The translations under genes were made by a program, and so were the position numbers. A stretch of 64,000 nt of DNA from Geobacteraceae bacterium (GTDB lineage: Bacteria > Desulfobacterota > Desulfuromonadia > Geobacterales > Geobacteraceae): the NCBI GenBank assembly GCA_024281055.1, contig JAMXLF010000031.1:1-64000 (forward strand), written 5' to 3'. Each line of letters opens with the position of its first letter. Within the stretch, counting starts at the first letter, position 1. Below the pieces are notes generated by a model, which saw nothing but the letters and a program-made list of their open reading frames with translations, did no database searches and was not told where the DNA came from. Positions 3,408 to 57,732 of the stretch are shown piece by piece.

Positions 3408-3428
3408 TCTGTTTTTATGACTATCGAA

Positions 3429-4375: not shown

Positions 4376-4407
4376 GGTGTCTCAGTCAGACAGGCAGCGG
4401 CGAGCCG

Positions 4408-4470: not shown

Positions 4471-4505
4471 GGAAGGAAATGTACGCCTGAGCTTTTCAGC
4501 TGTCA

Positions 4506-5081: not shown

Positions 5082-5498
5082 ATGAAGTCCTACCGCGAGG
5101 AACTCTGGTTCGAAACCCGCAGCCGGCGGGAGCTGATCAACATCACGCCGCAGGTGGCCGGCTGCCTGGCGAAAAGCGGCATCCGCGAGGGATTGTGCCT
5201 CGTGAACGCCATGCACATCAGCGCGAGCGTCTTCGTGAACGACGACGAGAGCGGCCTGCACCACGATTTCGAGGTCTGGCTGGAAGGGCTCGCGCCGGAG
5301 AAGCCCTATTCGCGCTACCGGCACAACTCGGGCGAGGACAACGCTGATGCCCACCTGAAGCGGACGATCATGGGGCGCGAGGTGGTGGTCGCGGTCACCG
5401 GGGGGAAACTGGACCTGGGGCCTTGGGAGCAGGTCTTCTACGGCGAGTTCGACGGGATGCGCCGCAAGCGGGTGCTGATGAAGATCATCGGGGAGTGA
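5082..5498 (+). CDS. YjbQ / UPF0047 family protein
   Basis: 138 residues matching the YjbQ family (secondary thiamine-phosphate synthase-type): [22 protein letters not shown], then [23 protein letters not shown], then [23 protein letters not shown], the conserved His/Asp/Glu-rich core. E. coli YjbQ has weak thiamine phosphate synthase activity; the physiological role is unsettled. ATG 5082 is chosen for its GGAGGGAGAG site. Only 9 bp separate it from the 2H/macro fusion gene, so the two are probably co-transcribed. Confidence 0.9.
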
Positions 5499-5507
5499 GG
5501 GAACGCC

Positions 5508-6587
5508 ATGACCGCTGACCACCGCAGGTTCTCAGTTTTCCTCGTTCCTGCCGCCGAGGACCGCCGCTGGGCGGAGGGGGTGATCCGCGAACTGGCCGCC
5601 CGTTATGACGCGCCACCCTTCGAGCCGCACGTGACGGTCTATGGCGGCCGCTTCGTTGAAGAATCGGAGCTGGAGCCGGTGCACCGCGCCCTGGCGGACG
5701 CAGCGGCGGAGACGGGACCGATCACCCTGCGCATCACGGGGTTCGGCGCGACGGCGGAGTATTTCAAGACCCTGTTCGTCGCCTTCGCCGAGGATCCCCG
5801 GCTGCGGCGGCTCTACGAGGTAGTGAGGGAAGCGGCGGTGCAGGGTTCCGGCTACGAGCTCGTGCCGCACCTCTCCCTTCTCTATGCCGATATCCCCCTG
5901 GCGGTGAAGAAGATGGCTGCGCGCACGGTCCATCTCGACCGGGAAGAGATGCGCTTCGACAGCCTAAAGATTGTCGTCCCTGACCCGGTCGCCGGCTGGC
6001 GCGACACCATGCGGTGGCAGACCCTATTCCGGGTGGGACTCCCCGCATTGCGCCTTATCCGCGGCGGGCGCGACGAGCTGCGGTTCGGCGCGCTCGGCGT
6101 TACCGTGGCGCCGCCCGAGTCCGCCCCTTTCCCGGTGGATGCGGAAATCGTGGAGGAGGACACCTGGCAGGTGCTGGGCGCAGGACCGGAAGTGATGGTG
6201 CCGGTCGAGCATTCGACGCAGATCATGACCGAGGTGCTGTCGGCCCAGCCGGTGCCCCTGGGGAGTGTCGTAGTCCGGGAAGGGGTTCCGCTCCGGCTCA
6301 TGGCCGTCGCGCACGATCTCAACCTTGAGCCGTCCTGCCGCCCGGAGTGGGTGGCGGCCGCCCTCGGCGAGGCATTCAGGGTCGCAGAGGCACGCTCGGT
6401 CCGCTCGCTTGCACTCCCCCTTCTGGGCGTCCGCCACGGGCGGCTGCCGGCTGCAGATTTCGTGCATCTCCTGGTCAGAATCATGCGGGAGCGGGCGCCG
6501 CACCACCTGCGCAAGCTCTGGCTCGTCGTGCCCGAAGAGGCGCGGGACGAGGTCCGGCGCCTGCTGGAGGAGGGGCGGGCGCGTTGA
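5508..6587 (+). CDS. 2H phosphoesterase (cyclic phosphodiesterase-like) fused to a macro-like domain
   Basis: 359 residues. The N-terminal half (about 5-170) is a 2H-family cyclic phosphodiesterase with the two His motifs HVTVYG (His41) and HLSLLY (His121), each H-x-T/S. The C-terminal half (about 185-355) is macro-domain-like: LMAVAHD, then a helix, then RSLALPLLGVRHGRLPAADF and a final KLWLVVPEE strand. Known 2H CPDases open ADP-ribose 1'',2''-cyclic phosphate; known macro phosphatases remove the phosphate from the product, so the two halves could act in sequence. That pairing is inference. The macro-like half lacks an obvious N-terminal Asn-rich motif. It follows yjbQ closely. Confidence 0.7.
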   Translation: MTADHRRFSVFLVPAAEDRRWAEGVIRELAARYDAPPFEPHVTVYGGRFVEESELEPVHRALADAAAETGPITLRITGFGATAEYFKTLFVAFAEDPRLRRLYEVVREAAVQGSGYELVPHLSLLYADIPLAVKKMAARTVHLDREEMRFDSLKIVVPDPVAGWRDTMRWQTLFRVGLPALRLIRGGRDELRFGALGVTVAPPESAPFPVDAEIVEEDTWQVLGAGPEVMVPVEHSTQIMTEVLSAQPVPLGSVVVREGVPLRLMAVAHDLNLEPSCRPEWVAAALGEAFRVAEARSVRSLALPLLGVRHGRLPAADFVHLLVRIMRERAPHHLRKLWLVVPEEARDEVRRLLEEGRAR

Positions 6588-6599
6588 GCAGCTGCGCAG

Positions 6600-8909
6600 C
6601 TACGCCAGGATGTCGTCCAGCGCGTCCCGCAGCGCTTCCATCGTGTACGGCTTGATCATGCGCGCCGAAAAGCCGTAGGAGCGGAAATCCGCGAGCACCG
6701 GGTTGTCCGCGTAGCCGCTTGAGACGATGACCTTCACGCGTGGGTCGATCTCCCGCAGCCGGTCGACAACCTCTTCCCCGCCGATCCCCCCTTTGACCGT
6801 CAGGTCGAGAATGACCACATCGAAGGAGACGCCGGCGTCATAGGCCTCGCGCACCTTCGCCAGGGCACCCTCGCCGTCCTCCGCACACTCCACCTCGTGC
6901 CCCAGGAGCAGGACCATCCTGGAGACCACGAGCCGCACGACATCCTCGTCGTCCATGACGAGAATTCTCCCCTTTCGCCTGGAGGGTGCGACGGGGGGCA
7001 GCGCTTTCGTCTCCTCCGCCTCCGGAGAAGCGGGGATGTAAAGGGAAAAGGTGCTCCCCCTGTCCGGTTCGGAAGCCACCTCGAGGACCCCGCCGTGGTT
7101 CCGCGCGATGGCGAACGCTGTCGCCAGCCCGAGCCCGCTCCCCTTGTGCTTGGTGGTGAAGTAGGGATCGAAGATCCTCGCCAGGTACTGCGCCGGAATC
7201 CCGATCCCCGAATCCCTGATGTCGGCCCTGACGAATTCGCCCCCTTCGGGAAGCGAGAGATGGGCTCCCGGCGGAATGACCATGCGATGGAGGGATATCT
7301 CCACCGTCCCGCCGTCGGGCATGGCCTCGCTGGCGTTCAGGACGATGTTCTGGATGACCTGGCCGACCTGCCCCTCGTCGGCGATCACCGGCCAGGGGCT
7401 GCCTGCGGACGCAAGGCGATATGTGGAGCGCGCGCCGCTCAGGGCGAACCTCGCCGCGTTCTCGATGACCGGAACGAGGTCGAGTTTCTTTCTGACCGGT
7501 TGCCCCCCCTTGGCAAAAGTCAGCAGCTGGTTGGTGAGGTTGATCGACATCTTCAGGGCCTGCTCGGCCTGTTCGAGGAGGTCGGCGGTGTTCTCGCCGC
7601 TGCCGAGGCTCGCCCTAGCCATGGAGATGTACCCGAACACCCCCTGAAGCAGGTTGTTGAAATCATGGGCGATGCCGCCCGCCAGGATCCCGACCGATTC
7701 GAGCTTCTGGAGCTTGAGCCGCTCCTCTTCCAGTTGCTTTCGTTGCGTGATGTCGGTGGTAACGACTATCGCCAACTGGGGCTCCCCCGCGGGGCTCCTG
7801 ATGAGGGAGACGTTGCTGACACCCCAAAAACACGAACCGTCTTCCCTGAGGAGGAGGTATTCCAGGTCCGTCAGGGCATCTCTCGTGACAAGCTCCCCCA
7901 GCGCCTCGACCGCTTTTTGCCGGTGTTCCGGAGCAACCCACTCGAAGAGGCTCCGGCCGAGCACGCCGGAATCGTCCGCATGACCGAACAGATCCAGTGC
8001 CCGCCGGTTGGCCATGCAGATACGGCCGGTCGGGTCGGCAACCGTGATCGCATTGGGGGAGGTCTCGGTCAGGAGACGGTACATCTTCTCGCTCTTGCGC
8101 AGGGCCTCGTCCGCGCGCCTCCTTTCAGTGACATCGCGGAAGGACCAGACGCGGCCAACGACGGCGCCTTCGAGAAGGAGGGGCGCGGAATACCGCTCGA
8201 ACACCCGCCCGTCTTTGAAGTGCACCTCGTCCATGTCCAACTCGGCGGTTCCGTATAGTGCCTTCACTTTCTTGAGAAACGCGTCGGGATCGCTCAGTTG
8301 GTCCAGCACAAAGGAGAGCATCGCGGCGTCGTCGCCGGAATCCATGATGGCCAGCGGGATCCTCCAGAGGTCAGCGAATATCCGGTTCGCCTGGATGGTC
8401 TTTCCCTGGGCGTAGACCGCCAGGATGCCGTCGGCGGTGGCTTCGAGAATGACCCGCAGGTGCGCTTCGTTCCGGCGAAGCGCTTCCTCGGCCTGCCTGC
8501 GGCCGGTGACGTCGGTGCCGAAGCCGACAATCTCCGTGATCCTTCCGGCATCGTCATAGCGATTGATGGAGCTCCAGGATACGATGCGTTTTTCGCCGCT
8601 GCGCGTTGTGAGGACCATCTCATAGTCACTCACATTTCCCCGATCGAGGGCCTCGAAAAGCCGCTCGACCTGAAGATACTCGGCGCCCGGATAAAAGGTC
8701 TGCCACCAGTTCGTGCCGATGAGCTCCGCACTCCCGTACCCCGTTACCTCCTCACCGGCCGGGTTGATGAAGAGGATAGTCCCGTCGGGGGCAATCATAC
8801 AGATGATAGCCGGGACCTTGCTGACGATCCGGCTCGCCAGGGCGCATTTCTCCTGTTGTGCGGCCAGCTCGGCGAGGAGCTCGTCCCTCGTTTTTTCCCT
8901 GTCACTCAT
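6600..8909 (-). CDS. PAS(3) hybrid sensor histidine kinase with C-terminal receiver
   Basis: 769 residues, no membrane helices, so a cytoplasmic sensor. Three PAS domains (about 25-145, 150-270, 275-400) precede a HisKA domain with the phospho-His box GGIAHDFNNLL (about residue 415), an HATPase domain (NIVLNASEAM as N box, DSGIGIP as G1, GSGLGLA as G2), and a receiver domain at the C-terminus (VMDDED acidic patch, phospho-acceptor in VVILDLT near residue 702, Lys in KPYT). Ligand unknown. It converges on the 2H/macro gene, only 12 bp apart, and no response regulator gene is adjacent. Confidence 0.9.
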   Translation of the reverse strand: MSDREKTRDELLAELAAQQEKCALASRIVSKVPAIICMIAPDGTILFINPAGEEVTGYGSAELIGTNWWQTFYPGAEYLQVERLFEALDRGNVSDYEMVLTTRSGEKRIVSWSSINRYDDAGRITEIVGFGTDVTGRRQAEEALRRNEAHLRVILEATADGILAVYAQGKTIQANRIFADLWRIPLAIMDSGDDAAMLSFVLDQLSDPDAFLKKVKALYGTAELDMDEVHFKDGRVFERYSAPLLLEGAVVGRVWSFRDVTERRRADEALRKSEKMYRLLTETSPNAITVADPTGRICMANRRALDLFGHADDSGVLGRSLFEWVAPEHRQKAVEALGELVTRDALTDLEYLLLREDGSCFWGVSNVSLIRSPAGEPQLAIVVTTDITQRKQLEEERLKLQKLESVGILAGGIAHDFNNLLQGVFGYISMARASLGSGENTADLLEQAEQALKMSINLTNQLLTFAKGGQPVRKKLDLVPVIENAARFALSGARSTYRLASAGSPWPVIADEGQVGQVIQNIVLNASEAMPDGGTVEISLHRMVIPPGAHLSLPEGGEFVRADIRDSGIGIPAQYLARIFDPYFTTKHKGSGLGLATAFAIARNHGGVLEVASEPDRGSTFSLYIPASPEAEETKALPPVAPSRRKGRILVMDDEDVVRLVVSRMVLLLGHEVECAEDGEGALAKVREAYDAGVSFDVVILDLTVKGGIGGEEVVDRLREIDPRVKVIVSSGYADNPVLADFRSYGFSARMIKPYTMEALRDALDDILA

Positions 8910-9112
8910 TGCAGTCTTTCGGGTAGTACGGAATCGTTGCCGGCACCGGGACTTGCAGTGGGCATGTGATTACGGCTATCGGCGGGTGGGGTGCTCTCAT
9001 TGATACACCCCGGGCAAGGTGAATGTCAAGAACTGACAAACGGCAGGTCACTACATGGCGAACACAGAATTATTCCGATATTCCCATCGATTTGGGAACC
9101 GGACCGCCTCCC

Positions 9113-9190
9113 GGCAAGGTAAAGAAGATGGTCGCCCCCTTCCCCGGTTCTCCCTCCCCCTTCTGGGGGTCCGCCACGGGCGGCTGCTGG
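9113..9190. pseudogene. Chimeric relic: kinase 3' end joined to a piece of the 2H/macro gene
   Basis: Two homologies meet here. Bases 9121-9160 resemble 11455-11490, the 3' end of the kinase at 11438 (minus strand GEPGKGATIFFTLP against GEPGKGATFFFTLP). Bases 9154-9190 resemble 6413-6450 on the plus strand, inside the macro-like domain of the 2H fusion gene (LLGVRHGRL in both), with about three mismatches over 37 bp. Neither fragment belongs to an intact gene. The rest of 8910-9206 shows no gene. Confidence 0.6.
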
Positions 9191-9206
9191 CGAAGCTGGA
9201 AGAGCC

Positions 9207-9632
9207 CTAAGGCTTCTCTTTCTTCCCCTTCGCAGCAACCCGCGCCGAAAATTTCTCGAAGTTTATGGCGAAGCGTTCGTGGGTCCCGCGGCCGATGACC
9301 TCGACCTCGTCGCGCGCCTCGATCTCCCACACCGTTCGCTTGCCGTCCACCTCGATCAGGCGCACCTTCGCGGTCACCTCCATCCCTACCGGCGTTGCCG
9401 CCTCGTGGGTCACATTGATCATCGTGCCCACGGTCCTCTCTCCCTCCTCCATGAAGGGTTTGAGCGCTTCCATGCAGGCCCATTCCATGAAGCCCACCAT
9501 ATAGCCGGTGGCAAACACTTCGGGCATCTTTCGGAACGGTTCCGCCTCCGGGTAGAGAAAGGGAACCGTCCTTTCCCGCGGCACCCGGTAGGTGAGGGTA
9601 TGCTCCAGTCCGACGGTCAATGTCTCTTTCAT
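9207..9632 (-). CDS. FlK-like hot-dog thioesterase
   Basis: 141 residues of the fluoroacetyl-CoA thioesterase-like family. VFATGYMVGFMEWACMEAL supplies the Thr and Glu positions used by FlK, and VGTMINVTHEAATPVGMEV the His, followed by the typical beta strands. The family cleaves small acyl-CoA thioesters; the substrate here is unknown. The C-terminus ends in a lysine-rich tail (AAKGKKEKP). It lies 13 bp upstream of the methyltransferase stop on the same strand order, so the two may be in one unit. Confidence 0.8.
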   Translation of the reverse strand: MKETLTVGLEHTLTYRVPRERTVPFLYPEAEPFRKMPEVFATGYMVGFMEWACMEALKPFMEEGERTVGTMINVTHEAATPVGMEVTAKVRLIEVDGKRTVWEIEARDEVEVIGRGTHERFAINFEKFSARVAAKGKKEKP

Positions 9633-9645
9633 GGCGACCTCCCCG

Positions 9646-10398
9646 TTAGTCGATGCGCCCAGCCCTTATGGAGAGCGGCCAGGCAACGCGTTTTGTTTCC
9701 CCAGGATCCCCCCAGGCGTCACGGAGTTCCTCCGCGACCGACAGGATGGCATCGTTGCCGGTCCGGACCGTGTATTCCTTGACTGCCGACCAGGTCGACA
9801 GGTAACCGATCAAATGGTCGAAGTGCCACTCCGCCGTCATGGCGAACTCAGGCGGCTCGATCTCCGCGAACGGAAACGGAAGCGTTCGGTAGCCGGCATC
9901 GACATGGCGCCGCTCCGGCGGCCAGTAGCTCCCCAGGATGTCGCGGTAGAGCCTGAACAGGACCCGGTCGAGCTCCGGGGTGAGCGTGAAGAGCCCGTAG
10001 GTGATGGCTGCAAAGACCGCACCCGGGCGGGCAACCCGCCGAACCTCCCCGTAGAAGCGCTCCAGGTCGAACCAGTGGAGGGCCTGTGCCGCAATGACCA
10101 GGTCCTGGCTCCCCTCCGGCAGGCCGGTCGCTTCTGCCGGAGCGACCAGGTAACGCACCCGTTCGTGGCCGACGGCCCGGACAATCTGCTCGGCGCTCGG
10201 GTCCACCCCGTACACCACCCGGAAGTAGCGGGCCAGGGCAACCGTGGCCTGCCCGGTCCCGCAGCCGCAGTCGAGGGCGCTGTCCTGCCGTGGCGCCACC
10301 CGTGCCAGCCATCGGAACATCTCCTCGGGGTACTCCGGGCGAAAGGCCCGGTAGGCATCCGCCAGTTGCGAGAAATGATCCTTGAACGTTTTGCCCAT
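9646..10398 (-). CDS. Class I SAM-dependent methyltransferase
   Basis: 250 residues. Motif I is ALDCGCGTGQATVAL, motif II VVYGVDPS, and the post-motifs PAEATGLPEGSQDLVIAAQALHW match the UbiE/COQ5-like methyltransferase_11 group. FAMTAEWHFDHLIGYLSTWSA is the C-terminal region common in YcgJ/trans-aconitate-methyltransferase-like proteins. Start at 10398 is chosen for AGGGAGGA upstream. Substrate unknown. Divergent from the LysR gene across an AT-rich palindrome-bearing gap. Confidence 0.85.
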   Translation of the reverse strand: MGKTFKDHFSQLADAYRAFRPEYPEEMFRWLARVAPRQDSALDCGCGTGQATVALARYFRVVYGVDPSAEQIVRAVGHERVRYLVAPAEATGLPEGSQDLVIAAQALHWFDLERFYGEVRRVARPGAVFAAITYGLFTLTPELDRVLFRLYRDILGSYWPPERRHVDAGYRTLPFPFAEIEPPEFAMTAEWHFDHLIGYLSTWSAVKEYTVRTGNDAILSVAEELRDAWGDPGETKRVAWPLSIRAGRID

Positions 10399-11437: not shown

Positions 11438-12745
11438 CTATTCCGGCAACGTGAAAAAGAAGGTCGCTCCCTTCCCCGGCTCTCCCTCTCCCCACACCTC
11501 GCCACCGTGGCGCTGGACGATCCGGCGCACCGTCGCCAGCCCGATCCCTGTTCCGGGGAAATCGTGTGCGTTCCGGAGCCTCTGAAACGGAGTGAAGAGC
11601 TTGTCCGCGTCCTTCATGTCGAAGCCCGCCCCGTTGTCACGGACAAAGAAGGCCCGCTTTCCATCGCGGATAACCGACCCGAACTCGATGCGTGCTTCCG
11701 GCGTCATGCCCGTGTACTTCCAGGCGTTGCCGAGCAGGTTATCGAGGGCAACCTTGATCAATCGCGGATCACCCGCCGCGGCCAGATCGGGAGCGATGTC
11801 GAACTCCGCCCTCCGCTCCGGACCCGTCAGCTTCAGTACCGATGCGATTTCGCGGACCATCTGGCTCAGGTCCACCGTCTCCCGGCTGATCTCGCTCCGA
11901 ACGATCCGTGACAGGACCATCATGTCCTTGATCAGCTTGTCCATGTCCTCGTTCGCATCGCATATCACGTTGATCAGAAAACGGCCCTTTTCGTCCAGTG
12001 CCACCGGAAGATAATTATCCCGCAACATGTACGCTGCGGAAGAAGTCCGCGTGAGATAGTTTCGCATGTCGTGGGTGAGCGAATAGCCGAACGCTTCCAG
12101 CTCCCGGTTCGCCGCCGCCAGTTCCTCCGCCTTGCGCTCCAGTTCCCTCTCGAACCTCTTGTGGGCGGTTATGTCCCTCACGATGCAGACGATGCTGCTC
12201 CGGTCCACGGCCGTAACGGAGATCTCCTGGGGGAACGTGGTGCCGTCTTTTCGTCTGCCGACCGCTTCGCCCCGCCATTCGCCTTGTGCCAGGACGACGG
12301 GAAACACTTTCTCTTCGAACTTCGCTGTTTCGTCGGCACCATAGAAGAGGCGCCATGATGCGCCGAGCACCTCGGCAAGGTCGTCGTACCCGTGCAGTCT
12401 GGCCTGGGACTCGTTCAGGTAGGCGCACTCCCGCCTGCTGTCGAGGATGAAGATGCCGTCCATCGAGGCGTCCATGCCGGCCTGGTATTTAACCAGCGCC
12501 TTCTCCAGCTGCCTTCGCTTGAGCATGAGGTGGGATATGTAGGCGATGAACAGCAACAACACGCTCAGGAAAGCAAGGCGTACGGCGATCTCCCGTGAGC
12601 CGGGGGACAGTATCTGCCTGCGGACATCCCCTCCCGTCACCTCGGCGTTGATGATGCTGTCGAGCAGATAGGCCGCCACCATAAGAGTCGAGCCTGTCCC
12701 GATGATGCGGCCGACGTCACTCTTGAGAGGCCTGTTTCTCGCCAT
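11438..12745 (-). CDS. Membrane PAS sensor histidine kinase (riboswitch-controlled)
   Basis: 435 residues. An N-terminal segment holds two membrane helices (STLMVAAYLLDSI and AVRLAFLSVLLLFIAYISHL), then one PAS domain (about 100-215), a coiled region, an HisKA-like domain with YSLTHDMRNYL as phospho-His region, and an HATPase domain (DNLLGNAWKYT, RDNGAGFD, GTGIGLATV). Start at 12745 follows an AGAGGTGG site; a longer form to 12814 would begin inside the terminator hairpin. A GEMM-type riboswitch with terminator lies directly upstream, so expression should depend on a cyclic dinucleotide. Confidence 0.88.
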   Translation of the reverse strand: MARNRPLKSDVGRIIGTGSTLMVAAYLLDSIINAEVTGGDVRRQILSPGSREIAVRLAFLSVLLLFIAYISHLMLKRRQLEKALVKYQAGMDASMDGIFILDSRRECAYLNESQARLHGYDDLAEVLGASWRLFYGADETAKFEEKVFPVVLAQGEWRGEAVGRRKDGTTFPQEISVTAVDRSSIVCIVRDITAHKRFERELERKAEELAAANRELEAFGYSLTHDMRNYLTRTSSAAYMLRDNYLPVALDEKGRFLINVICDANEDMDKLIKDMMVLSRIVRSEISRETVDLSQMVREIASVLKLTGPERRAEFDIAPDLAAAGDPRLIKVALDNLLGNAWKYTGMTPEARIEFGSVIRDGKRAFFVRDNGAGFDMKDADKLFTPFQRLRNAHDFPGTGIGLATVRRIVQRHGGEVWGEGEPGKGATFFFTLPE

Positions 12746-12772
12746 GCAGCACCACCTCTGCCGGCTGCGGAG

Positions 12773-12831
12773 AAAAAGGAACAGCCGGGGCTGAAATATC
12801 GATATCGATGACATTTCGGCAACCCGGCTGT
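12773..12831 (-). terminator. Riboswitch expression platform (terminator)
   Basis: The minus strand has ACAGCCGGG (12831-12823), which is the 3' arm of the riboswitch, and its complement CCCGGCTGT (12789-12781), followed by TCC and T5 (12778-12773). Pairing of the two would terminate transcription; ligand binding would hold the first arm and let RNA polymerase pass. This predicts an ON switch. Confidence 0.75.
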
Positions 12832-12890
12832 CTCGGTGAGACCCTGTAGGCTTTCCGCCCCGCCCTCGCGAACGGTTGAGTATTATCGTC
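12810..12890 (-). promoter_or_regulatory. GEMM-I riboswitch, 3',3'-cGAMP (GEMM-Ib) type
   Basis: Minus-strand RNA shows the GEMM landmarks in order: GACGATAATACTCAACC, a hairpin with GCGA tetraloop (CCGTTC GCGA GGGCGG), GGCGGAAAGCC, a second hairpin (GGGTCT CACC GAGAC), and AGCCGGGTTGCCGAA. From memory this is very close to Geobacter cGAMP-sensing GEMM-Ib RNAs rather than to the Vibrio c-di-GMP type. It precedes the PAS kinase at 11438. Confidence 0.85.
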
Positions 12891-12918
12891 TACCATCTGA
12901 TGTTCAGAATGTTGCGCT

Positions 12919-25810: not shown

Positions 25811-25860
25811 ACAAACAAAATGGCCGAGCCACCCAAATGCGTCATTTGGCAGCTCGGCCA
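25811..25860 (-). terminator. Expression platform terminator of the second riboswitch
   Basis: On the minus strand GGCCGAGC(T)GCCAAATG pairs with CATTTGG(GT)GGCTCGGCC, followed by ATTTTGTTTG. The first arm is the 3' strand of the GEMM aptamer, so ligand binding should prevent termination. Confidence 0.75.
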
Positions 25861-25929
25861 TCTCCGTCCCGAAGATCCGTGGCTTTCCGTCCCTTTCTCG
25901 CGAAAGGTTTGGCTTTATCGAAACGTCAT
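25842..25929 (-). promoter_or_regulatory. GEMM-I riboswitch (cyclic dinucleotide)
   Basis: Minus strand shows CGATAAAGCCAAACC, a hairpin with GCGA tetraloop (CTTTC GCGA GAAAGG), GACGGAAAGCC, a second variable hairpin (GGATCTTCGGGACGG region) and GGCCGAGCTGCC. This fits the GEMM-I fold. I cannot tell c-di-GMP from cGAMP with certainty; the GCGA loop and GGAAAGCC resemble the first copy at 12810. Confidence 0.75.
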
Positions 25930-34619: not shown

Positions 34620-35051
34620 TCACGCGCAATTAGAGTTAGCCCCAGCTCCTCCATCCGCCTCATTAGCCACGCCCGGCTTTTTTTCACCAGGATCGAGCAG
34701 GTCGAGCTGAGCCTCGACAGCTTTGATCTTCTTGTCATCACCCTCATCCACGATCCGCACCAGCTTATTCACCAGCTTCAGCTTCTTTTTCTCTGCAGGG
34801 CCGATTTTGGATAGCCAGATCGGCGCCGCTTCAGCTGCAATTGCCTTCTGATCACCACCAACAATAAATCGATCGAGAGATATTCCCTCTTTAACGCAAA
34901 ATGCGATGACTTCCTCAAATGGGATTGAATTTCTACTTCTCCAAGATGCCACCGTTGTCTGCTTGACGCCGAACAAATCCCCTAAGGCCGCATCAGAGCC
35001 CAATCCTTTAAGACTTCGAATTTCATCAAGAATTTCAGATGCAGTACGCAT
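34620..35051 (-). CDS. Phage CI-type repressor
   Basis: 143 residues. The N-terminal domain (ASEILDEIRSLKGLGSDAALGD, then LFGVKQTTVASWRSRNSIPFEEVI) is the CI-repressor HTH family. No S24 peptidase domain follows; instead a helical C-terminus (AEKKKLKLVNKLVRIVDEGDD) and a Gly/Ala-rich end. It should keep the prophage silent by binding the TTAAC dyads upstream. Without an autoproteolysis domain, induction would not follow the LexA-like route. Start at 35051 is the first Met before the HTH. Confidence 0.8.
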   Translation of the reverse strand: MRTASEILDEIRSLKGLGSDAALGDLFGVKQTTVASWRSRNSIPFEEVIAFCVKEGISLDRFIVGGDQKAIAAEAAPIWLSKIGPAEKKKLKLVNKLVRIVDEGDDKKIKAVEAQLDLLDPGEKKPGVANEADGGAGANSNCA

Positions 35052-35085
35052 AAATAATTTTATCGCAATTTGAGTTAAATTTTTA

Positions 35086-35140
35086 TTGACCATTAACGCG
35101 TTTTGCGTTAACTTCAATTTATCAGTTAATCAAGATTAAC
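35086..35140. promoter_or_regulatory. Early promoter and repressor/Ner operators
   Basis: Plus-strand TTGACC (35086-35091), 17-bp spacer, TAACTT (35109-35114). TTAACGC-GTTTT-GCGTTAA (35093-35111) overlaps the spacer and GTTAAT-CAAG-ATTAAC (35125-35140) lies downstream. These dyads sit between the divergent repressor and Ner-like genes and are the likely operators. Confidence 0.7.
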
Positions 35141-45517: not shown

Positions 45518-46102
45518 ATGAAACCTAACCGTCAATTCAAGCGCCACGCCGGTGCCGGAATCACCCGCGGCCAGGTCACCGCGATCAAGATGGGACAGAA
45601 GCAGCTCGGCATCGATGACGAAACCTACCGCGATATCCTCTGGACGCGCTATGACGGTGCTACCAGCTGTCTCGATCTCAACTTTGACCAAGCGAAAGAC
45701 CTGATCGAGGATTTTGTTTCCCGCGGTTTCGTCTTGGTTCAGCCGGAATCGAAGGCGCGCAAGAAGCGCCAGAAGCAGAGCTATCCCCCCCGGCCGCCGC
45801 GCGGCGACAAGAAGGTGATCGCCCTGGCGACGAAAGACGAGATCGACAAGGTGAACGCGATCGCGGCCCTCATCGAGTGGCGGGTTGAGAACGGCCTGGA
45901 GCGGTTCCTAGCCGCCCGCATGGGGATCAAGGACGGCAAGGTACGCACCTCCCGGGATGCCTATCTGGCCATCGAGGGGCTGAAGAAGCTGTTCGAGAAT
46001 TATATGAAAAAGCTGCATGGCCCGAACTGGTGGATCCAGCGCTTCGACGATCCGGGTATCATGACCTACATTGCCGAGCACAAGCCGGCGGAATACCGGT
46101 AG
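45518..46102 (+). CDS. gemA: GemA (Mu gp16-like, DUF1018)
   Basis: 194 residues. ITRGQVTAIKMGQKQLGIDD then YRDILWTRYDGATSCLDLNF, with the WTR element and DEIDKVNAIAALIEWRVENG, match the GemA/DUF1018 family of Mu-like phages, a regulator that affects host DNA superhelicity and gene expression in Mu. Start at 45518 has GAGGTGAGG upstream. Its TAG stop is the first codon of a TAGGGGC repeat. Confidence 0.85.
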   Translation: MKPNRQFKRHAGAGITRGQVTAIKMGQKQLGIDDETYRDILWTRYDGATSCLDLNFDQAKDLIEDFVSRGFVLVQPESKARKKRQKQSYPPRPPRGDKKVIALATKDEIDKVNAIAALIEWRVENGLERFLAARMGIKDGKVRTSRDAYLAIEGLKKLFENYMKKLHGPNWWIQRFDDPGIMTYIAEHKPAEYR

Positions 46103-46156
46103 GGGCGGCCCCGCGTGGCCGCCCAGAACAGGGCAACCACATGGGGTTGCCCCTAC
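46100..46156. repeat. TAGGGGC two-hairpin repeat, copy A
   Basis: TAGGGGCGGCC...GGCCGCCC and GGGCAACC...GGTTGCCCCTA form two stems separated by AGAACA. Begins exactly at the gemA stop TAG and ends 10 bp before the next start codon. Copies at 49590 and 54232 have the same layout. Confidence 0.8.
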
Positions 46157-46166
46157 GAGAAACAAT

Positions 46167-46634
46167 ATGTCCTGGCTTGACGAGCTGAAAATAGAAGACC
46201 TGCGCGGCGACTATGCCGTGATCGCGGCGGCGATCGGTCTGGAAAACACCGTCGTGCTCGCCGAGGAGCTGGGGATAGGTCCGCTGCCGTTGCCGCGTCT
46301 CGCCGGTCCCCTGCGCCATCCCGACCAGCTCCGGAGCGGCTACGTCGACCTGTTCGAAGTCCTCGGCATGGAACTGACCGATGCGATCGCCGGGAAGGTC
46401 ATGAAATACGACGGCGGCCAGCTCTATCTTCCCCAAGCGAAGCATGTCCTCCTCGCGGCCAAAGAGCGGTATGTGAAGAAACACGACAAGGTCAGCAACC
46501 GGCGCCAGCTCGCCCGCGAGACACGCCTCTCCCTTCGTCACGTTTACCGGGTTTGTCAGGATAAAACCGAGGAGCGGCGCCGGAAAAGGGATGAAGACCC
46601 TGACCAGTTGAGCCTTTTACCGATTTCGGATTGA
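46167..46634 (+). CDS. mor: Mor-family transcriptional activator
   Basis: 155 residues. The middle part (LRSGYVDLFEVLGMELTDAI, YLPQAKHVLLAAKERYVKKH) is the Mor dimerisation domain, and NRRQLARETRLSLRHVYRVCQ the C-terminal HTH, as in Mu Mor and C. Activates middle/late transcription. It follows gemA, as in Mu, and precedes the terminator and lysis genes. There is only one such gene in the window, so it may do the work of both Mor and C. Confidence 0.85.
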   Translation: MSWLDELKIEDLRGDYAVIAAAIGLENTVVLAEELGIGPLPLPRLAGPLRHPDQLRSGYVDLFEVLGMELTDAIAGKVMKYDGGQLYLPQAKHVLLAAKERYVKKHDKVSNRRQLARETRLSLRHVYRVCQDKTEERRRKRDEDPDQLSLLPISD

Positions 46635-50193: not shown

Positions 50194-51818
50194 CGATGGC
50201 AACGGCCGCACAGCTTCCGGGAGACGTGGAGCGGATCCTTAGCTTCGACGAGCTTCCCCCCAGGGTGCGGCGCATTCCATCTGACCACAACCCGCTCGCC
50301 TCCGGTGTCCTCATGGATCCCCAGCGCGAATGGATCAGGCAGTGCCACGAAAACGACCTGATGATCGCGGAAAAGGGACGCCGCACCGGCATTACCTACT
50401 CCACCGCCCTTGATTCCACCATCATCGCCGCGTCTTCCGCCGACGCCGGCGGCGACAACATCTACTACATCGGCGACACCAAGGAAAAGGGCCTTGAGTT
50501 CATCGGCTACTGCGCCCACATGGCCAAGGTCATGGCGGCAGCCATGGCCGACGGCTTCATGGGGATCGAGGTCTTTCTCTTCGAGGATCAGCAGGAAGAC
50601 GGAAGTTCCAAGCAGATCACCAGCTACCGGATCCGCTTCGCCTCCGGCTTCCAGATCGTGGCGCTTTCCTCGAACCCGGCCAACATCCGGGGCTTGCAGG
50701 GGATCGTCATCATCGACGAGGCGGCATTCCACAAGAACGTCCAGGCTGTGGTCGACGCCTGCAACGCGCTCCTCATCTGGGGCGGCAAGATCCGGGTGAT
50801 CTCCACCCATAATGGCGACCGCAACCCCTTCAACCAGCTGATCCTGGACGCCGACGCCGGCGTAAACCCGTTCAAGGTGTTCCGCTGCACCTTCGACGAC
50901 GCCGTGGCGGCCGGGCTGTTCGAGAGGGTCTGCATGATGCGTAAGTGGGAGCCGACCGAGGAGCGGAAACGCACCTGGTACAACCGCATTCGCGGCAGCT
51001 ACGGCAGCAACCGCGCCGCCATGCTGGAAGAATTGGACGCCATTCCGCGGGAGGGTTCCGGCGTGGCGATCCCTGGCGTGGTCATCGAGAGCTGCATGAA
51101 GGAAGCACGGCCGGTGGTGCGCCTGTCCCTCGATAGCGAGTTCGGACTCAAGCCGGTCGATGAGCGGCGCCGCTGGTGCGACGACTGGATCAGGGCCAAC
51201 ATTGACCCACTGTTGGAGCTGCTCGATCCGAAGCTCGATCATTATTTCGGGTTCGACTATGCCCGCTATATGGACCTCGGCTGTTTCGGCCCTATCGAGG
51301 TCGAGCAGGACCTAACCAGGAAGGTTCCCTGGATCATCGAGCTTTACAATGTGCCCAAGAGCCAACAGCAGCAGATACTTTTCTACGTCATCCGCCGCTT
51401 GCCTCGGTTCCGGTGCGGCGCCATGGATGCCACCGGCAACGGCCAGGGCCTTGCCGAGGACACCGCCGACGAGTTCGGACGGATGAACATTCTGCAGGTC
51501 ACACTGAATGATGCCTGGTATCGGGCGAACATGCTCAGCTTTGTGGAGGCATTCGAAGACCGGACGATCGACGTGCCGCGCGACGCCGACGTCAAGAACG
51601 ACCTGAGAATGCTGGTCCGGATAAACGGCATCACCAAGCTGCCGAACCTGCGCGTGGTGGACACCAAGGATGGCGAGAAGAAGCGCCACGGCGACTCGGC
51701 TATCATGCTGGCTCTTGGATGGTTCGCCTCGAACCAGGATGCCGGCCCCCCCTGGGGCGCCTCCCGTGGCCGGCGCGAATCCGTGAACATGCTGAAGGGA
51801 TACGACAATGCCGCGTAA
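50190..51818 (+). CDS. Terminase large subunit (Mu gp28-like)
   Basis: 542 residues. ATPase with Walker A-like EKGRRTGITYST and Walker B GIVIIDEAAFH, followed by ISTHNGD coupling motif; the C-terminal nuclease domain has acidic positions in FGFDYARYMD, MDATGNG and KKRHGDSAIM. Drives packaging of phage DNA into heads from transposed copies. Overlaps the portal gene by 11 bp. Confidence 0.9.
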   Translation: MTMATAAQLPGDVERILSFDELPPRVRRIPSDHNPLASGVLMDPQREWIRQCHENDLMIAEKGRRTGITYSTALDSTIIAASSADAGGDNIYYIGDTKEKGLEFIGYCAHMAKVMAAAMADGFMGIEVFLFEDQQEDGSSKQITSYRIRFASGFQIVALSSNPANIRGLQGIVIIDEAAFHKNVQAVVDACNALLIWGGKIRVISTHNGDRNPFNQLILDADAGVNPFKVFRCTFDDAVAAGLFERVCMMRKWEPTEERKRTWYNRIRGSYGSNRAAMLEELDAIPREGSGVAIPGVVIESCMKEARPVVRLSLDSEFGLKPVDERRRWCDDWIRANIDPLLELLDPKLDHYFGFDYARYMDLGCFGPIEVEQDLTRKVPWIIELYNVPKSQQQQILFYVIRRLPRFRCGAMDATGNGQGLAEDTADEFGRMNILQVTLNDAWYRANMLSFVEAFEDRTIDVPRDADVKNDLRMLVRINGITKLPNLRVVDTKDGEKKRHGDSAIMLALGWFASNQDAGPPWGASRGRRESVNMLKGYDNAA

Positions 51819-54234
51819 CAACGGTCTCTATCTGCCGGATGGCAGTTTCATGCGCTTCACCGAGGATCCGGCCCAGCCGACTTCCCTCTCCCAGGAGATC
51901 GCCGTCCGTTCCAAGACTCTCGATTACTGGGGGCTGGCGAATCTCTACCTGCCCAACCCCGACCCGATCCTGAAGAGCCAGGGGAAAGACATCCGCGTTT
52001 ACCAGGATTTGATGACCGACGATCGCGTCGCCGGATCCATCACCAACCTGATCAATGCGGTCCTCGCCCTGTCGTGGGACATCGACCAGGGAAAGAGCAA
52101 GAGCCGCCGGGCCAAGGCGATCAAGGATATCTTCGCCCGATTGCCGCTGACGCGGATCAGCGAGCAGGTCATCCGCGGCGCCCGCGGTTACGGCTACTGC
52201 CCGACCGAGATGGTCATGGTCCGTCGGGACGGCTTGAACGTCCCGGTCGACCTCGTGCCCAAGCCGCAGAGGTGGTTCGTCTTTTCCCAGGAAAACCAAC
52301 TCCGCTTCCTCACCCGCACAAACCTTCTCCAGGGCGAGGAGCTCCCGGCCCGGCGCTTCCTCTGCCCGACCAACGAGGCGAGCTACGAGAACCCCTACGG
52401 GCTCGGGCTCCTGTCCCGCTGCTTCTGGCCGGTCACCTTCAAGCGGGGCGGCTGGCGGTTCTGGATCCAGTTCTCCGAAAAGTTCGGCCAGGTCTGGCCC
52501 ATCGGCAAGCTTCCCCGCTCCGCCACCCAGGAACAGATCGACCATTTCCTGGAGATCCTGGAGCGGATGATCCAGGACGGCTGCAGCGTGATCCCCGACG
52601 ACGGCAGCGTCGACCTGAAGGAATCGGGCTCCAAGGGCGCCACCTCCGACATGTACCGCGGCATCATCCAGGAGGCGAACAGCGCCATCTCCACGGTCTG
52701 GCTCGGCCACGCCGGCGCCGGCGAGTCACAGAGTGGCGGCAAGCTCGGTGACGACAAGCTCTCCATCGAGGTGCGCAAGGACGTGCGCGACTCGGCCGTG
52801 CGGCTGATGGAGGAGTTCTATAACCAGGTCATCGATTACATCTGCGAGGAGAACTGGGGATCCGCCGAAGGCGCCCCGCGGTTCACCTTCATCATCGAGA
52901 AGGAAGTCGACATCAAGCAGGCCGAGCGCGACGAGAAGCTCGCCGCGTCCATGGCCGCATCCGGCTGGGAGCTGACCGGAGAGTACTGGAAGCGCATCTA
53001 CAATCTCCAGGACGGCGACCTGAAGGAGAAGGCCCCGGCCGCCGAATCGTCAAAACCGCCGACCCTGCCGCTCGCTGGCCCGGACAAGATGTTCGCTGAC
53101 TCTCCCTCCCTTGATAAGGGGAGGGATGGGGAGGGGTTGCCCGACAATACCGATTACCTCGCCGTGCGCCTGGAGCAGGAAGCCCAGCCGTACCAGGAGG
53201 CATGGCTCGCCGCCGCACTCAAAGAGGTCGACCGCGCCGGCAACCTGGTCGATCTCCGTCAAGACCTTCTTGACGCGAAGATGGATATCGGCGCCATGGG
53301 GAAGACGATCGGCGACGCGATCATGCTCGGCCGCCTCCTTGGCATGGCCGAGGTCCAGGACGAGATAGCGGCCTCCGAGACCGGCGCCACTTTCGCTGAG
53401 GTCGCGCGCATGCACGAGCTCGTGGCCTGGGGACCGTGGTTCGAGTTCTCCACGCCGCCGATCGCAAACCGGGGCTCGATCATTTCCGCCCTCCGTCTCC
53501 CCTTCAAAGAAGCGATCGCCTTCTTCCGCGACAAGGTGAACATCCCCACCGAGCGGTGGAATGACCTCTTCCTCGACGCCCACTCCCGGGGTTTCATGAT
53601 CGCCGGCGCGCTTAAAGGAGAGCTCCTCTCCGATCTGCGCGACGCGGTCGACCAGACGATCAGCCAGGGACTCACGCTCCGCGAGTTCCGGCAACAGTGG
53701 GATGCGATCGTCGAGCGCTACGGCTGGACGTACAAGGGGGGGCGTAACTGGCGCACCCGCGTGGTCTATGAGACCAACACGCGCCAGGCATACAACGCCG
53801 GCCGCTGGGAGCAGGTCACCGACCCGGACGTTTTGAAGACCCGTCCCTATCTCCTTTACCGACACGGCGACTCTGTGCATCCCCGGCCACTCCATCTGGC
53901 ATGGAACGGCACGGTGCTTCCGGCCGATGACCCGTGGTGGGCAACCCATGCCCCCCAGAACGGGTGGGGGTGCAAGTGTACCGTCTTCTCCGTTGGGGAT
54001 CGCGACCTTGCCCGGATGCCCAACGCCAAGCGCCGGGCGCCGAACGACGGCACCTACGAGTGGACCGACAAGCAGGGACGCACCTTCACCATCCCCAACG
54101 GCATCGATCCCGGCTTCCAGTATAACCCGGGCGCGGCTGCGAAAAAGAGCTACAGCATCCTCGAGGATCGGATCAAACAATTGCCTCCCGACATCGGCAA
54201 GCGGATCCGCGCCGAGATCGCGGCGAAATCGTAG
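51808..54234 (+). CDS. Fused portal (DUF935, gp29) and head morphogenesis (gp30/Mu F-like) protein
   Basis: 808 residues. Residues 1 to about 430 are the Mu-type portal (TDDRVAGSITNLINAVLALS, YGYCPTEMVMVRRDGLNVPV, SDMYRGIIQEANSAISTVWL). Residues about 445-808 are a gp30-like minor head protein with the Mu F motif VVYETNTRQAYNAGRWEQ and HAPQNGWGCKC. In Mu they are separate proteins. The junction (about 432-445, DSPSLDKGRDGEGL) is encoded by a REP-like repeat, in frame. Its TAG stop starts repeat copy C. Confidence 0.85.
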   Translation: MPRNNGLYLPDGSFMRFTEDPAQPTSLSQEIAVRSKTLDYWGLANLYLPNPDPILKSQGKDIRVYQDLMTDDRVAGSITNLINAVLALSWDIDQGKSKSRRAKAIKDIFARLPLTRISEQVIRGARGYGYCPTEMVMVRRDGLNVPVDLVPKPQRWFVFSQENQLRFLTRTNLLQGEELPARRFLCPTNEASYENPYGLGLLSRCFWPVTFKRGGWRFWIQFSEKFGQVWPIGKLPRSATQEQIDHFLEILERMIQDGCSVIPDDGSVDLKESGSKGATSDMYRGIIQEANSAISTVWLGHAGAGESQSGGKLGDDKLSIEVRKDVRDSAVRLMEEFYNQVIDYICEENWGSAEGAPRFTFIIEKEVDIKQAERDEKLAASMAASGWELTGEYWKRIYNLQDGDLKEKAPAAESSKPPTLPLAGPDKMFADSPSLDKGRDGEGLPDNTDYLAVRLEQEAQPYQEAWLAAALKEVDRAGNLVDLRQDLLDAKMDIGAMGKTIGDAIMLGRLLGMAEVQDEIAASETGATFAEVARMHELVAWGPWFEFSTPPIANRGSIISALRLPFKEAIAFFRDKVNIPTERWNDLFLDAHSRGFMIAGALKGELLSDLRDAVDQTISQGLTLREFRQQWDAIVERYGWTYKGGRNWRTRVVYETNTRQAYNAGRWEQVTDPDVLKTRPYLLYRHGDSVHPRPLHLAWNGTVLPADDPWWATHAPQNGWGCKCTVFSVGDRDLARMPNAKRRAPNDGTYEWTDKQGRTFTIPNGIDPGFQYNPGAAAKKSYSILEDRIKQLPPDIGKRIRAEIAAKS
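53104..53138. repeat. REP-like element inside the portal/head fusion
   Basis: CCCTCCC-TTGATAA-GGGGAGGG then ATGGGGAGGGG, translated as SPSLDKGRDGEG. Same family as 41285, 57744 and 59429. Confidence 0.8.
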
Positions 54235-54288
54235 GGGCGGCCCCATGTGGCCGCCCGCATCAGGGCAACCACACGGGGTTGCCCCTAC
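54232..54288. repeat. TAGGGGC two-hairpin repeat, copy C
   Basis: TAGGGGCGGCC...GGCCGCCC and GGGCAACC...GGTTGCCCCTA, close to copy A. Begins at the TAG stop of the portal/head gene and ends 11 bp before ATG 54300. Confidence 0.8.
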
Positions 54289-54299
54289 AGAGCACACAA

Positions 54300-54797
54300 A
54301 TGGCCGGCGAGCTCATCAAGATAACGAACAACCTCCCCGAGGTGCAGGCGAAGCTGAAAGAGATCGCCCGGCGATCGGGAAGCATGCGGCCGGCCTTCAA
54401 GGGGATGGGTGAGTACCTGAAGTTGTCTACGCGGCAGGATCGCTTCGACAAAGAGACCGACCCCCATGGGAAGAAGTGGAAGGCGATCAAGGAAGCTACG
54501 CGAGCCCGCAAGGCCCGGAAGGGAAAGCCGACCGATATCCTCCACGAGGACCTGAACCTCCGGGACACCATCGATTATGACCCGGGGGAGGAGACGCTCC
54601 TCTTCGGCTCCCCGCAGAAATACGCCGCGGCCCAGCAGCTGGGAGCGGAGATCACCGTCCGGCGCCGGGGCGGCAAATCGAAGAGACGCCGCCAGGGGCC
54701 GGGGAAGATCAAGATCGACGCCCGGGAATTCCTGGGCGTGAGTATGGCCGACGAGGTCGAGCTCCTCGCGATCGCCGGAGACTATTTGTTGGCATAA
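54300..54797 (+). CDS. Virion morphogenesis protein (Mu gpG-like)
   Basis: 165 residues. FDKETDPHGKKWKAIKEATR and LRDTIDYDPGEETLLFGSPQ, then YAAAQQLGA and REFLGVSMADEVELL are the conserved blocks of the phage virion morphogenesis (tail completion, gpG/gpS) family. Acts in tail formation. The start lies close behind repeat copy C, so its ribosome site is repeat-derived or absent. Confidence 0.85.
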   Translation: MAGELIKITNNLPEVQAKLKEIARRSGSMRPAFKGMGEYLKLSTRQDRFDKETDPHGKKWKAIKEATRARKARKGKPTDILHEDLNLRDTIDYDPGEETLLFGSPQKYAAAQQLGAEITVRRRGGKSKRRRQGPGKIKIDAREFLGVSMADEVELLAIAGDYLLA

Positions 54798-55036
54798 CGC
54801 GAAATTCCCTCTGTGCCGCTTTTTCACCTCGGTACATACCTATGCCGCACTTTTGCGGGTCGGGCCGGCTGAGGGCCTTGTAAACAGTTTATAAACATAT
54901 TTTTGGCGCTCCGGTTGTGAGTCAGCGGCCACCGAAAAAACCGGAAATCGGGATGGCAGTCGGTGACCGGGTCACATGAGGTTGATCGAATGATGTTGTA
55001 CGGTGCACTGGCACCGTACCGGAAAAGGAGGAGAAG
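54798..55036. other. Late intergenic region with palindromes and an AT-rich core
   Basis: No gene seen. It holds an AT-rich stretch (GTTTATAAAC, 54891-54900) that could be a promoter, GTGACCGGGTCAC (54963-54975), and a perfect hairpin GTACGGTGC-ACTG-GCACCGTAC (54998-55019) 18 bp before the Acb2-like gene. This gap suggests the small gene after it has its own control. Confidence 0.45.
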
Positions 55037-55249
55037 GTGACAGAGAAAGAGCTCGACAACCTGTTCAGCTACCACCCGCCGAAGGGAAACCAGGTGAACC
55101 GCTACAACGACATCCGCGAGGTGGGGCGGCTTTTCGCCAAGACCATCCTTGACAGCACCCCTCCCGGAGCGGACCAGACGGCGGCGATCCGGAAGGTCCG
55201 CGAGGCGGTCATGACGGCCAACGCGGCGATCGCCTGCGGGGAGGAATGA
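55037..55249 (+). CDS. Acb2/Tad1-like anti-defence protein (cyclic nucleotide sponge candidate)
   Basis: 70 residues from GTG 55037 (GGAGGAG upstream). FSYHPPKGNQVNRYNDIREV, then a helix and AAIRKVREAVMTANAAIACG, match the pattern I know for the Acb2/Tad1 hairpin family (YHPPK..Q..RY..IR; AVM.ANAAIA). Acb2 of Pseudomonas phages binds cyclic di- and trinucleotides and blocks CBASS; Tad1 binds gcADPR-type molecules and blocks Thoeris. It sits alone between gpG and protease genes, behind a hairpin-rich gap. Binding has not been shown for this protein. Confidence 0.7.
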   Translation: MTEKELDNLFSYHPPKGNQVNRYNDIREVGRLFAKTILDSTPPGADQTAAIRKVREAVMTANAAIACGEE

Positions 55250-55251
55250 GC

Positions 55252-56403
55252 ATGGCACAATGGGATCTCGTTTTCACCACCGGCGAGCATACCGACGGAA
55301 ACGGCAACAAGAAGGTCTGGACCGAAGCCGACCTTGACCGGATCGTCGCCCTGTTCAACCCGAAGTTCCACGAGCCGCCCCTGGTGCTCGGCCATCCTTC
55401 CGACAACGCCCCGGCGTTCGGCTGGGTCGAGCAGATGAAAAGGATCGGCACCGGGCTCTACGTGGCTTACAAGGGCGTCGTTGACGAGTTTAAGGAGTGG
55501 AACCGGAAGGGGATGTTCAAGAAGAAGTCGATCGCACTCTACCCGAACGGCATGCTCCGCCATGTTGGCTACCTCGGCGCGATGCCCCCCGCCATCAAAG
55601 GTCTTCCCGATTTCGCCTTTGCCGATGGCGACCTGGGCAAACCGGTCGTCTGGGAGTTCTGCGACATGGATGACATGACCATCGCCGGGCTCTTCCGCCG
55701 GCTGCGCGAATTCATCATCTCCAAGTTCGACAAGGAAACGGCCGACCAGGTCATCCCCGATTATGAAGTAACCGGTCTGCAGGTGTCCGCCTGCATGCCG
55801 GATGAAAAGGAAGTAGACGACATGGGCCTGACCGGCCCCACCTACAAGGAGGCAGAAATGGATCAAAAGGCATTTGACGCTCTCTCGAAGAGGGTCGAAG
55901 GGCTGGAGGCCGGGATCAAGTCGATCAACGACAGCATCGCCGCCTTCGGCGAAACCATGAAGGGGCTGAACGGCACGATCACCGCCATACAGACCCAGTT
56001 CACCCAGGGCGAAGAGGCCGCCGCCCGTCGCGAGTTCACCGCGTTCTGCGAGGGGCTCAAGACCCGCATCCTCCCCGCCGAGATCCCGACCATCGTCGAT
56101 CAGATGATGAACCTTCGGAAAGCGACCGACGTGGAATTCAGCGAGGGGGGCGAGACGAAGAAGCGCAGCGCCGTCGACGACTTCAAGCTGAAGCTCCAGG
56201 GGCGCGCCGAAACCGTCCAGTTCGGCGAGTTCGCAACCGGTGACCTGGCCGGGCAGCGTGAGGCCGGCGGCGAGGATGCCGTTGCCATCGCCCAGAAGGC
56301 ACAGGAGTTCCAGGACGCGGAGGCCAAGGCCGGCCGTACCATCACCATCGCCGACGCCGTGACCCACGTTCGGAATGAAGCAGGCAAAGGAGGTGCCCGA
56401 TGA
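55252..56403 (+). CDS. Phage protease/scaffold protein (Mu gpI-like)
   Basis: 383 residues. The N-terminal half is Mu I-like protease (PLVLGHPSDNAPAFGWVEQM, GMFKKKSIALYPNGMLRHVG, YLGAMPPAIKGL); the C-terminal half is a coiled scaffold (DALSKRVEGLEAGIKSINDS). An internal ATG near 55858 (GAGGCAGAA upstream) could start a scaffold-only form, as with Mu gpI and gpZ. Matures the procapsid. ATG 55252 chosen for spacing from GGGGAGG. Confidence 0.85.
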   Translation: MAQWDLVFTTGEHTDGNGNKKVWTEADLDRIVALFNPKFHEPPLVLGHPSDNAPAFGWVEQMKRIGTGLYVAYKGVVDEFKEWNRKGMFKKKSIALYPNGMLRHVGYLGAMPPAIKGLPDFAFADGDLGKPVVWEFCDMDDMTIAGLFRRLREFIISKFDKETADQVIPDYEVTGLQVSACMPDEKEVDDMGLTGPTYKEAEMDQKAFDALSKRVEGLEAGIKSINDSIAAFGETMKGLNGTITAIQTQFTQGEEAAARREFTAFCEGLKTRILPAEIPTIVDQMMNLRKATDVEFSEGGETKKRSAVDDFKLKLQGRAETVQFGEFATGDLAGQREAGGEDAVAIAQKAQEFQDAEAKAGRTITIADAVTHVRNEAGKGGAR

Positions 56404-56778: not shown

Positions 56779-57732
56779 ATGGCCAGAACCCCGTTTCCCA
56801 TAATACCCGCCCTCTGCGCGGTAGCGATCGGCTACCGCAACGAGGAGATGATCGCCGACCAGGTGCTCCCCTACGTCACGGTCCCGGCCCGCGAGTTCTA
56901 CTACCTCGACTTCACCGGTATCGACATTTTCACCGTCCCCGAACTGGAGATCGGCCGCAAGTCCTCCCCCAACGAGGTCGAGTTCGGCGCCGAGCGAAAG
57001 CTCGCAGGGGTCAAGGATTACGGCCTCAAGGACCGCATTCCCCAGGCGGACATCGATGCCGCCGCCAAAGGACCCTATCCGTACGATCCCCAGGCCCGTA
57101 GCGCCGACGCCATGATGAAGATCGTGAAACTCGGCCGCGAGGTCCGCGTTGCCCGGCTCGTGTTCAACAAGGCGATGTATAGGCCCGACCTGCAGACGAT
57201 CCTGGACAAGAATACCAACTTCCAGAACTCTGACACCGATCCGATTGGCGTCATTTCCGACGCCCTTGACAAGCCGCTCTTTCGCCCCAACGTGGTCACT
57301 CTTGGGCAGCGGGCATGGACGATCCTGCGGCGTCATCCCAAGGTGGTGAAGGCGTGCAACGGTTCGCTCGCCGCCGATACGGGCCTTGCCACCCGACAGG
57401 CCGTGGCCGAGCTGCTGGAAGTGAAAAAGATCAACGTCGGCGCCGGATGGGTCAATGTTGCCAAAAAAGGGCAGAAACCCGTGCGGGCTCGCGTCTGGGG
57501 TGGCCACATGGCCATGTACTACGAAGATACCCAGGTGCAGAACACGGAAGGGGGTGCCACCTTCGGTTATACCGCCCGCTATGGTCAGCCGTGGGGGGGT
57601 GCCATGTTCGACAAGGATATCGGCCCCCAGGGTGGTGAAGAGGTCCGCGTCGGCGAAACCATCCGCGAGATGATCACCTTCAACGAAGGGGCGTACTTCA
57701 TCGGCAACGTAACCGGAGAGGATCCGATCTAA
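56779..57732 (+). CDS. Major capsid protein
   Basis: 317 residues with the Mu-type/HK97-fold capsid pattern: MIADQVLPYVTVPAREFYYL near the N-terminus, and RPNVVTLGQRAWTILRRHPK, WGGHMAMYYEDTQVQNTEGG in the body. Expected as the most abundant structural protein. AAAGGAGG upstream. Followed by a double REP-like element. Confidence 0.8.
   Translation: MARTPFPIIPALCAVAIGYRNEEMIADQVLPYVTVPAREFYYLDFTGIDIFTVPELEIGRKSSPNEVEFGAERKLAGVKDYGLKDRIPQADIDAAAKGPYPYDPQARSADAMMKIVKLGREVRVARLVFNKAMYRPDLQTILDKNTNFQNSDTDPIGVISDALDKPLFRPNVVTLGQRAWTILRRHPKVVKACNGSLAADTGLATRQAVAELLEVKKINVGAGWVNVAKKGQKPVRARVWGGHMAMYYEDTQVQNTEGGATFGYTARYGQPWGGAMFDKDIGPQGGEEVRVGETIREMITFNEGAYFIGNVTGEDPI

Follow-up and report, generated by a model that had tools for sequence, protein, structure and literature searches.

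The closest described counterparts of the protein considered here are the Acb2 proteins of Pseudomonas phages PaMx33/PaP2 and of T4 (Vs.4), and the Tad1 proteins, which fall in the same Pfam hairpin family. Both are phage proteins that sequester the alarm nucleotides of bacteria: Acb2 forms a hexamer, takes up cyclic di- and trinucleotides and blocks CBASS, and Tad1 binds gcADPR and inhibits Thoeris. The Acb2 protomer is composed of a short helix followed by two long antiparallel helices, and it binds 3',3'-cGAMP; c-di-GMP is absent from the high-affinity Acb2 ligands given in the same review (PMC12043709). In that review, Acb2 is described, with reference to Huiting et al. 2023, as active upon prophage induction and not in lysogenic maintenance, and ThsB1 of Thoeris is described as sensing the major head protein. 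The signal pocket of Tad1 makes use of N-terminal beta-strands and loops (PMC12043709). A further group consists of PHROG 1454 and the phage proteins named "Acb2/Tad1 hairpin domain-containing", for which PHROGs gives no functional assignment.

The window, meaning the whole 64,000-nucleotide stretch of a Geobacteraceae genome analysed here, contains an open reading frame of 70 codons, hereafter acb2, which an earlier note made from the sequence alone had assigned to the Acb2/Tad1 hairpin family on the strength of the motifs YHPPK..Q..RY..IR and AVM.ANAAIA. Both motifs are present, and the Pfam profile PF24729 (Acb2_Tad1_hairpin) was matched across its whole length (E 2.9e-12, 47 bits against a curated cut-off of 27 bits; the experimentally studied Acb2 of PaMx33 gives 66 bits). 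PHROG 1454, of function unknown, was matched in PHROGs, and a search of NCBIfam gave no match. Of 198 IMG/VR stretches with acb2 peptide patterns, 185 code for a relative, which sets the number of viral relatives at 185 at least (the nearest is 74 % identical) and shows that the reading frame is real and not a chance one. Relatives numbered 145 in sequenced phages, and a scan of GTDB genome contigs gave 10 further loci. The PF24729 domain was found in three of 147 related genomes, the source genome being counted among the three, and the prophage gene is the only copy in the host genome. An alignment of 37 sequences shows no variation at F10, R27, D46, R52, R55, E56, T60, A61, N62 and A66, and most relatives have an invariant core as well as the Tyr and the basic residue found in the dinucleotide pocket of Acb2. 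The protein is a new member of the known Acb2/Tad1 hairpin family, and is most like Acb2. The coordinates of acb2 and of the other features discussed are shown in Table 1.

Table 1 Features of the window, with positions counted from its first nucleotide
Feature	Position	Strand	Evidence
cGAMP-type-pocket GEMM-I riboswitch	12815..12891	-	RF01051 39.3 bits, cut-off 35
PAS histidine kinase behind the 12815-12891 riboswitch	11438..12814	-	PF02518, PF13426, PF00512
c-di-GMP-I-GGC riboswitch	25844..25922	-	RF03167 67 bits
CI-type prophage repressor	34620..35117	-	PF07022
Transcription activator of the Mor family, which presumably drives the late operons	46071..46634	+	PF08765, phrog_836 (late transcriptional activator)
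Mu-type portal fused to Mu F-like protein	51808..54234	+	PF06074 261 bits, PF04233 53 bits
Neck / tail completion protein, Mu gpG type	54279..54797	+	PF05069, phrog_26
Regulatory gap of 239 nt from neck gene to acb2, presumed counterpart of the site of late promoter PI in Mu	54798..55036	+	junction comparison
Palindrome GTTTATAAAC, candidate activator site	54887..54896	+	only copy in the 64-kb window
Perfect hairpin GTACGGTGC-ACTG-GCACCGTAC, nine base pairs, just 5' of the ribosome-binding site	54998..55019	+	
Ribosome-binding site AAAAGGAGGAG of acb2	55023..55033	+	sequence
acb2-family gene, 70 aa, GTG start	55037..55249	+	PF24729, AlphaFold2 model, BFVD fold matches
Head-maturation protease, Mu gpI type	55246..56403	+	phrog_976 E 9.6e-77
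Major head protein, in the operon of acb2	56779..57732	+	phrog_1005 E 3.9e-72

Relatives in well-known phages were found to be unannotated or wrongly named (L094-L100; L095 492-698). The copy in Cyanophage S-2L carries no annotation, and gp90 of Brevibacillus phage Jenst is misnamed "putative phosphomannomutase".

AlphaFold2, supplied with the 37-row alignment, returned a model of high confidence (pLDDT 94, pTM 0.81) with helices at residues 3-9, 17-40 and 45-67, that is, one short and two long antiparallel helices as in the published Acb2 protomer. The model has no beta-strand, and the protein differs in this from Tad1, whose N-terminal beta-sheet domain helps to form the gcADPR pocket. Acb2/Tad1 hairpin proteins headed the matches among the viral models of BFVD, with E values from 0.002, so that structure prediction, like the profile search, bears out the family assignment. 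A fold search of the PDB returned no Acb2 or Tad1 at E<=10, two-helix hairpins being weak queries for such searches, and sequence searches of the PDB with the single sequence and with the 37-row profile gave no significant Acb2 match. With a broader profile built from relatives only, Acb2 and Tad1 being left out, the best PDB match was "Acb2 homolog 43" (9PTQ, E 9e-5), followed by the T4 Vs.4/Acb2 and Tad1 structures (E 0.2-0.4). Homolog 43 (76 aa) resembles the 70-residue protein in its length and in being without a long insert, although identity between the two is low.

The protein was also aligned with the Acb2 proteins of PaMx33 and T4. R27 falls on T4 K23 and on PaMx33 K26, which we take to be a residue of the Acb2 pocket, with equal spacing, the basic residue following the Tyr by 15 positions. 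Y12 falls on T4 Y8, a residue whose replacement by Ala disrupts dinucleotide binding and Panoptes triggering. Where the pocket of T4 Acb2 has T68 and F82, the 70-residue protein has R52 and A66; the F82 equivalent is Ala in PaMx33 Acb2 also, and the T68 equivalent there is Thr. As with the known Acb2 proteins, the gene is a phage gene of less than 100 codons, whereas identity to them is about 20 % and the inter-helix loop is shorter, the whole protein having 70 aa against 88-93 aa. On these grounds the family resemblance is firm. The (S)RE..A.T..E..MW segment of Tad1 has a counterpart, and the PHROG 1454 group is the direct family of the protein, with identity of up to 74 % and the patterns F.YHPP..Q...Y..IR and (R/E)EA.M.ANA.IA in common.

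The prophage around acb2 is Mu-like, as the earlier note had held, with repressor, Mor, portal, neck, protease and head genes, and it also contains GemA, head proteins and a tail sheath. The description of the gene as sitting alone was wrong, because its stop codon and the ATG of the head-maturation protease gene share nucleotides (ATGA, 55246-55249); acb2 is the first gene of the head-assembly operon of the prophage, and for this reason its product is probably made only during phage multiplication. This placement inside the late head operon differs from that in PaMx33, in which acb2 lies on the strand opposite to the adjoining structural gene. Across the family the gene neighbours, derived from crude gene calls, are mixed and not always late, with relatives also found beside unrelated or replication genes, and a late-operon location was therefore dropped as a rule for the whole family. 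A second, divergent PF24729 protein in a genome of the same order (L102, G100:C75, 1441-1695, minus strand) lies among genes resembling phage head genes, so that these hairpins may have come to lie next to head genes on more than one occasion.

The Mu late promoter PI drives gene I and requires the activator C, and by analogy the gap upstream of acb2, which has counterparts in the related phages L001 and L136-L138, may correspond to PI. Neither a consensus sigma-70 promoter nor a terminator was found in it, which would be compatible with a promoter dependent on an activator, or with transcription running on from the upstream late genes. The palindrome GTTTATAAAC is present between the neck and protease genes of three related Mu-like phages (the window; L136:3939; L138:3935) and is a candidate site for a Mor/C-type activator; the same CAGTTTATAAAC recurs in the corresponding gap of L136 and L138, both of which are without acb2. 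Directly ahead of the ribosome-binding site with which the head operon starts there is a hairpin with GGTGC..GCACC arms, in the window, in L001 (4181-4205), which has acb2, and in L137 (3965-3985). An exclusive link of the hairpin with acb2 was rejected: a comparable dyad occurs in L137, which is without acb2, and other members of the family show no excess of upstream palindromes. Nor could the gap of 239 nt be upheld as a structured RNA (folding z -1.06, no Rfam match).

In L001 acb2 is 75 % identical to the gene in the window, with a portal of 29 % and a protease of 47 % identity, and the junction and the ATGA overlap are as in the window. In L136-L138 the portal is 61-71 % and the protease 46-64 % identical, and the junction is alike but without acb2. 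Since acb2 is more alike than its neighbours and yet is missing from nearer kin, it is best read, from these comparisons, as an accessory gene that can be exchanged and that was inserted where the late operon begins.

A regulatory consequence for the host had also been proposed, namely that the window carries two GEMM riboswitches, one of the cGAMP type, and that a sponge expressed in the lysogen would rewire host signalling through them. Both riboswitches are present. In the one at 12815-12891, model column 11, which we take to be Vc2 G20, is A and not G, the published cGAMP-type change, and this places it with the cGAMP-type GEMM-I riboswitches; the one at 25844-25922 has G at the G20 equivalent. 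Past the cGAMP-type aptamer (12745-12800, minus strand), CAGCCCCGGCTG is followed by TTCCTTTTTC in a terminator-like arrangement, so that transcription may be what the expression platform controls, and translation of the kinase may begin at the ATG near 12745 and not at 12814. Among 25 GGDEF matches in the host, one reads GHLVGS where canonical enzymes show GD, and belongs to a GAF-GGDEF protein on contig C8 (L134, G000:C8:64000-72000, 3408-4526, plus strand). The spacing of its Ser to GGDEF equals that of GacA Ser347, and this Ser signature marks Hypr cGAMP synthases; by simple spacing the second selectivity position of GacA, Tyr303, falls on Ala, and the Hypr label is therefore provisional. 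Under that provisional label, the protein is likely to supply cGAMP to the 12815-12891 riboswitch. A cGAMP network in the host is plausible, given the riboswitch and the Hypr-like GGDEF, and the host premise of the proposal is in part borne out; expression of the sponge in the lysogen and the rewiring of host genes are not supported.

The host genome (99.6 % complete, 103 contigs) gave no SMODS or AGS_C cyclase match, and no CBASS cyclase was found in it; its Cas10 matches were sub-threshold and overlapped GGDEF matches, and a search with PF21654 (DncV-like cyclase) was uninformative, its controls having given no signal. With no such cyclase match in the host, the presumed CBASS target would have to be in other hosts of the phage. 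A complete Thoeris locus, ThsA (702 bits)-ThsB1-ThsB2, leads straight to E1-E2 (Cap2, 572 bits) and JAB (Cap3) genes (L133, G000:C44:28000-38529, 5474-10285). Four other genomes of the phylum have E1-E2 after a patatin gene and a cyclase-like gene, these two being identified from sequence and order only; this is the type II CBASS order. When the host genome was searched with one such cyclase, only its last 32 residues were found, fused to ThsB2; at its end ThsB2 carries some 32 residues (ENAACLVNLISEKSDPGAVEKRGGGRYG) that match the C-terminal tails of type II CBASS-like cyclases, with 53 % identity to L146. The closest of the other ThsB proteins (78 % identical, G272) has residue 161 as its last, and in the ten other genomes with a match no alignment extends beyond about residue 162. 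Because only the cyclase tail remains, fused to ThsB2, the CBASS cyclase and effector appear to have been replaced by Thoeris in this host, and the tail may be either a scar of this operon replacement or part of a chimera in which Cap2 conjugates ThsB via the borrowed tail.

The reading that we favour, with a probability of about two in three, is that acb2 encodes a late-expressed anti-CBASS sponge of the Acb2 family and is an accessory gene of the Mu-like prophage. Upon induction or infection, a Mor/C-type activator would turn on the junction promoter, and the sponge would be made along with the head protease and the major head protein. It would then oligomerise and bind the cyclic oligonucleotides of CBASS-type cyclases, by which the CBASS death effectors would be kept off until assembly is finished; in the lysogen the late operon would be expected to be silent. 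The T68/F82 changes, the absence of a PDB fold match, the lack of a SMODS or AGS_C cyclase in the sequenced host and the mixed neighbours of the family count against such a sponge. The altered pocket residues would also suit a small head-assembly or virion accessory that uses the hairpin fold and is no sponge, as would the location between the neck and protease genes and the G100 relative that also lies near head-like genes. The closest phages are without the gene, which argues that it is not needed for assembly, and relatives adjoin unrelated or replication genes as well, so that this role is doubtful. A Tad1-type anti-Thoeris function has to be weighed because Tad1 has the hairpin in common and the host carries Thoeris, with ThsA, ThsB1 and ThsB2 all in place; Tad1 shares PF24729 with the protein, its structures are among those that follow homolog 43 in the PDB search, and the major head protein, which ThsB1 senses according to review PMC12043709, is a product of the acb2 operon. 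The pocket of Tad1, however, makes use of N-terminal strands and loops, and the strandless model of the 70-residue protein makes this function quite improbable.

There is very little chance, in our estimate, that the lysogen produces the sponge, with the result that free cGAMP falls and riboswitch-controlled host genes are shut off. The cGAMP-type riboswitch before the histidine kinase, the host GAF-GGDEF with its Hypr signature Ser and the binding of 3',3'-cGAMP by Acb2 (PMC12043709) speak for it, but acb2 heads a late, presumably activator-dependent operon and overlaps the head protease, the gap lacks a consensus sigma-70 promoter, and the high-affinity ligands listed for Acb2 do not include c-di-GMP (PMC12043709). 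The nearness of acb2 to the riboswitches in the window carries no meaning, because second messengers diffuse. Rewiring of a quiet lysogen is unlikely, since the PI-type junction and operon position predict, and the review describes for Acb2, activity upon induction and inactivity in lysogenic maintenance. A slim chance, at most, is given to a variant in which spontaneous or partial induction lets the sponge drain cGAMP below the need of GEMM-Ib riboswitches, in which case a counter-defence gene would affect the physiology of the host.

The favoured reading of acb2 as an anti-CBASS sponge would make a member of the Acb2 family the opening gene of the head-protease operon in a Mu-like phage, where it is swapped in and out at the neck/protease junction. 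If it is true, synthesis of the sponge would be timed with that of the head protein, a trigger of Thoeris according to review PMC12043709. Of wider value is the host locus itself, in which a ThsB that appears to carry the tail of a lost CBASS cyclase stands before the genes of Cap2 and Cap3.
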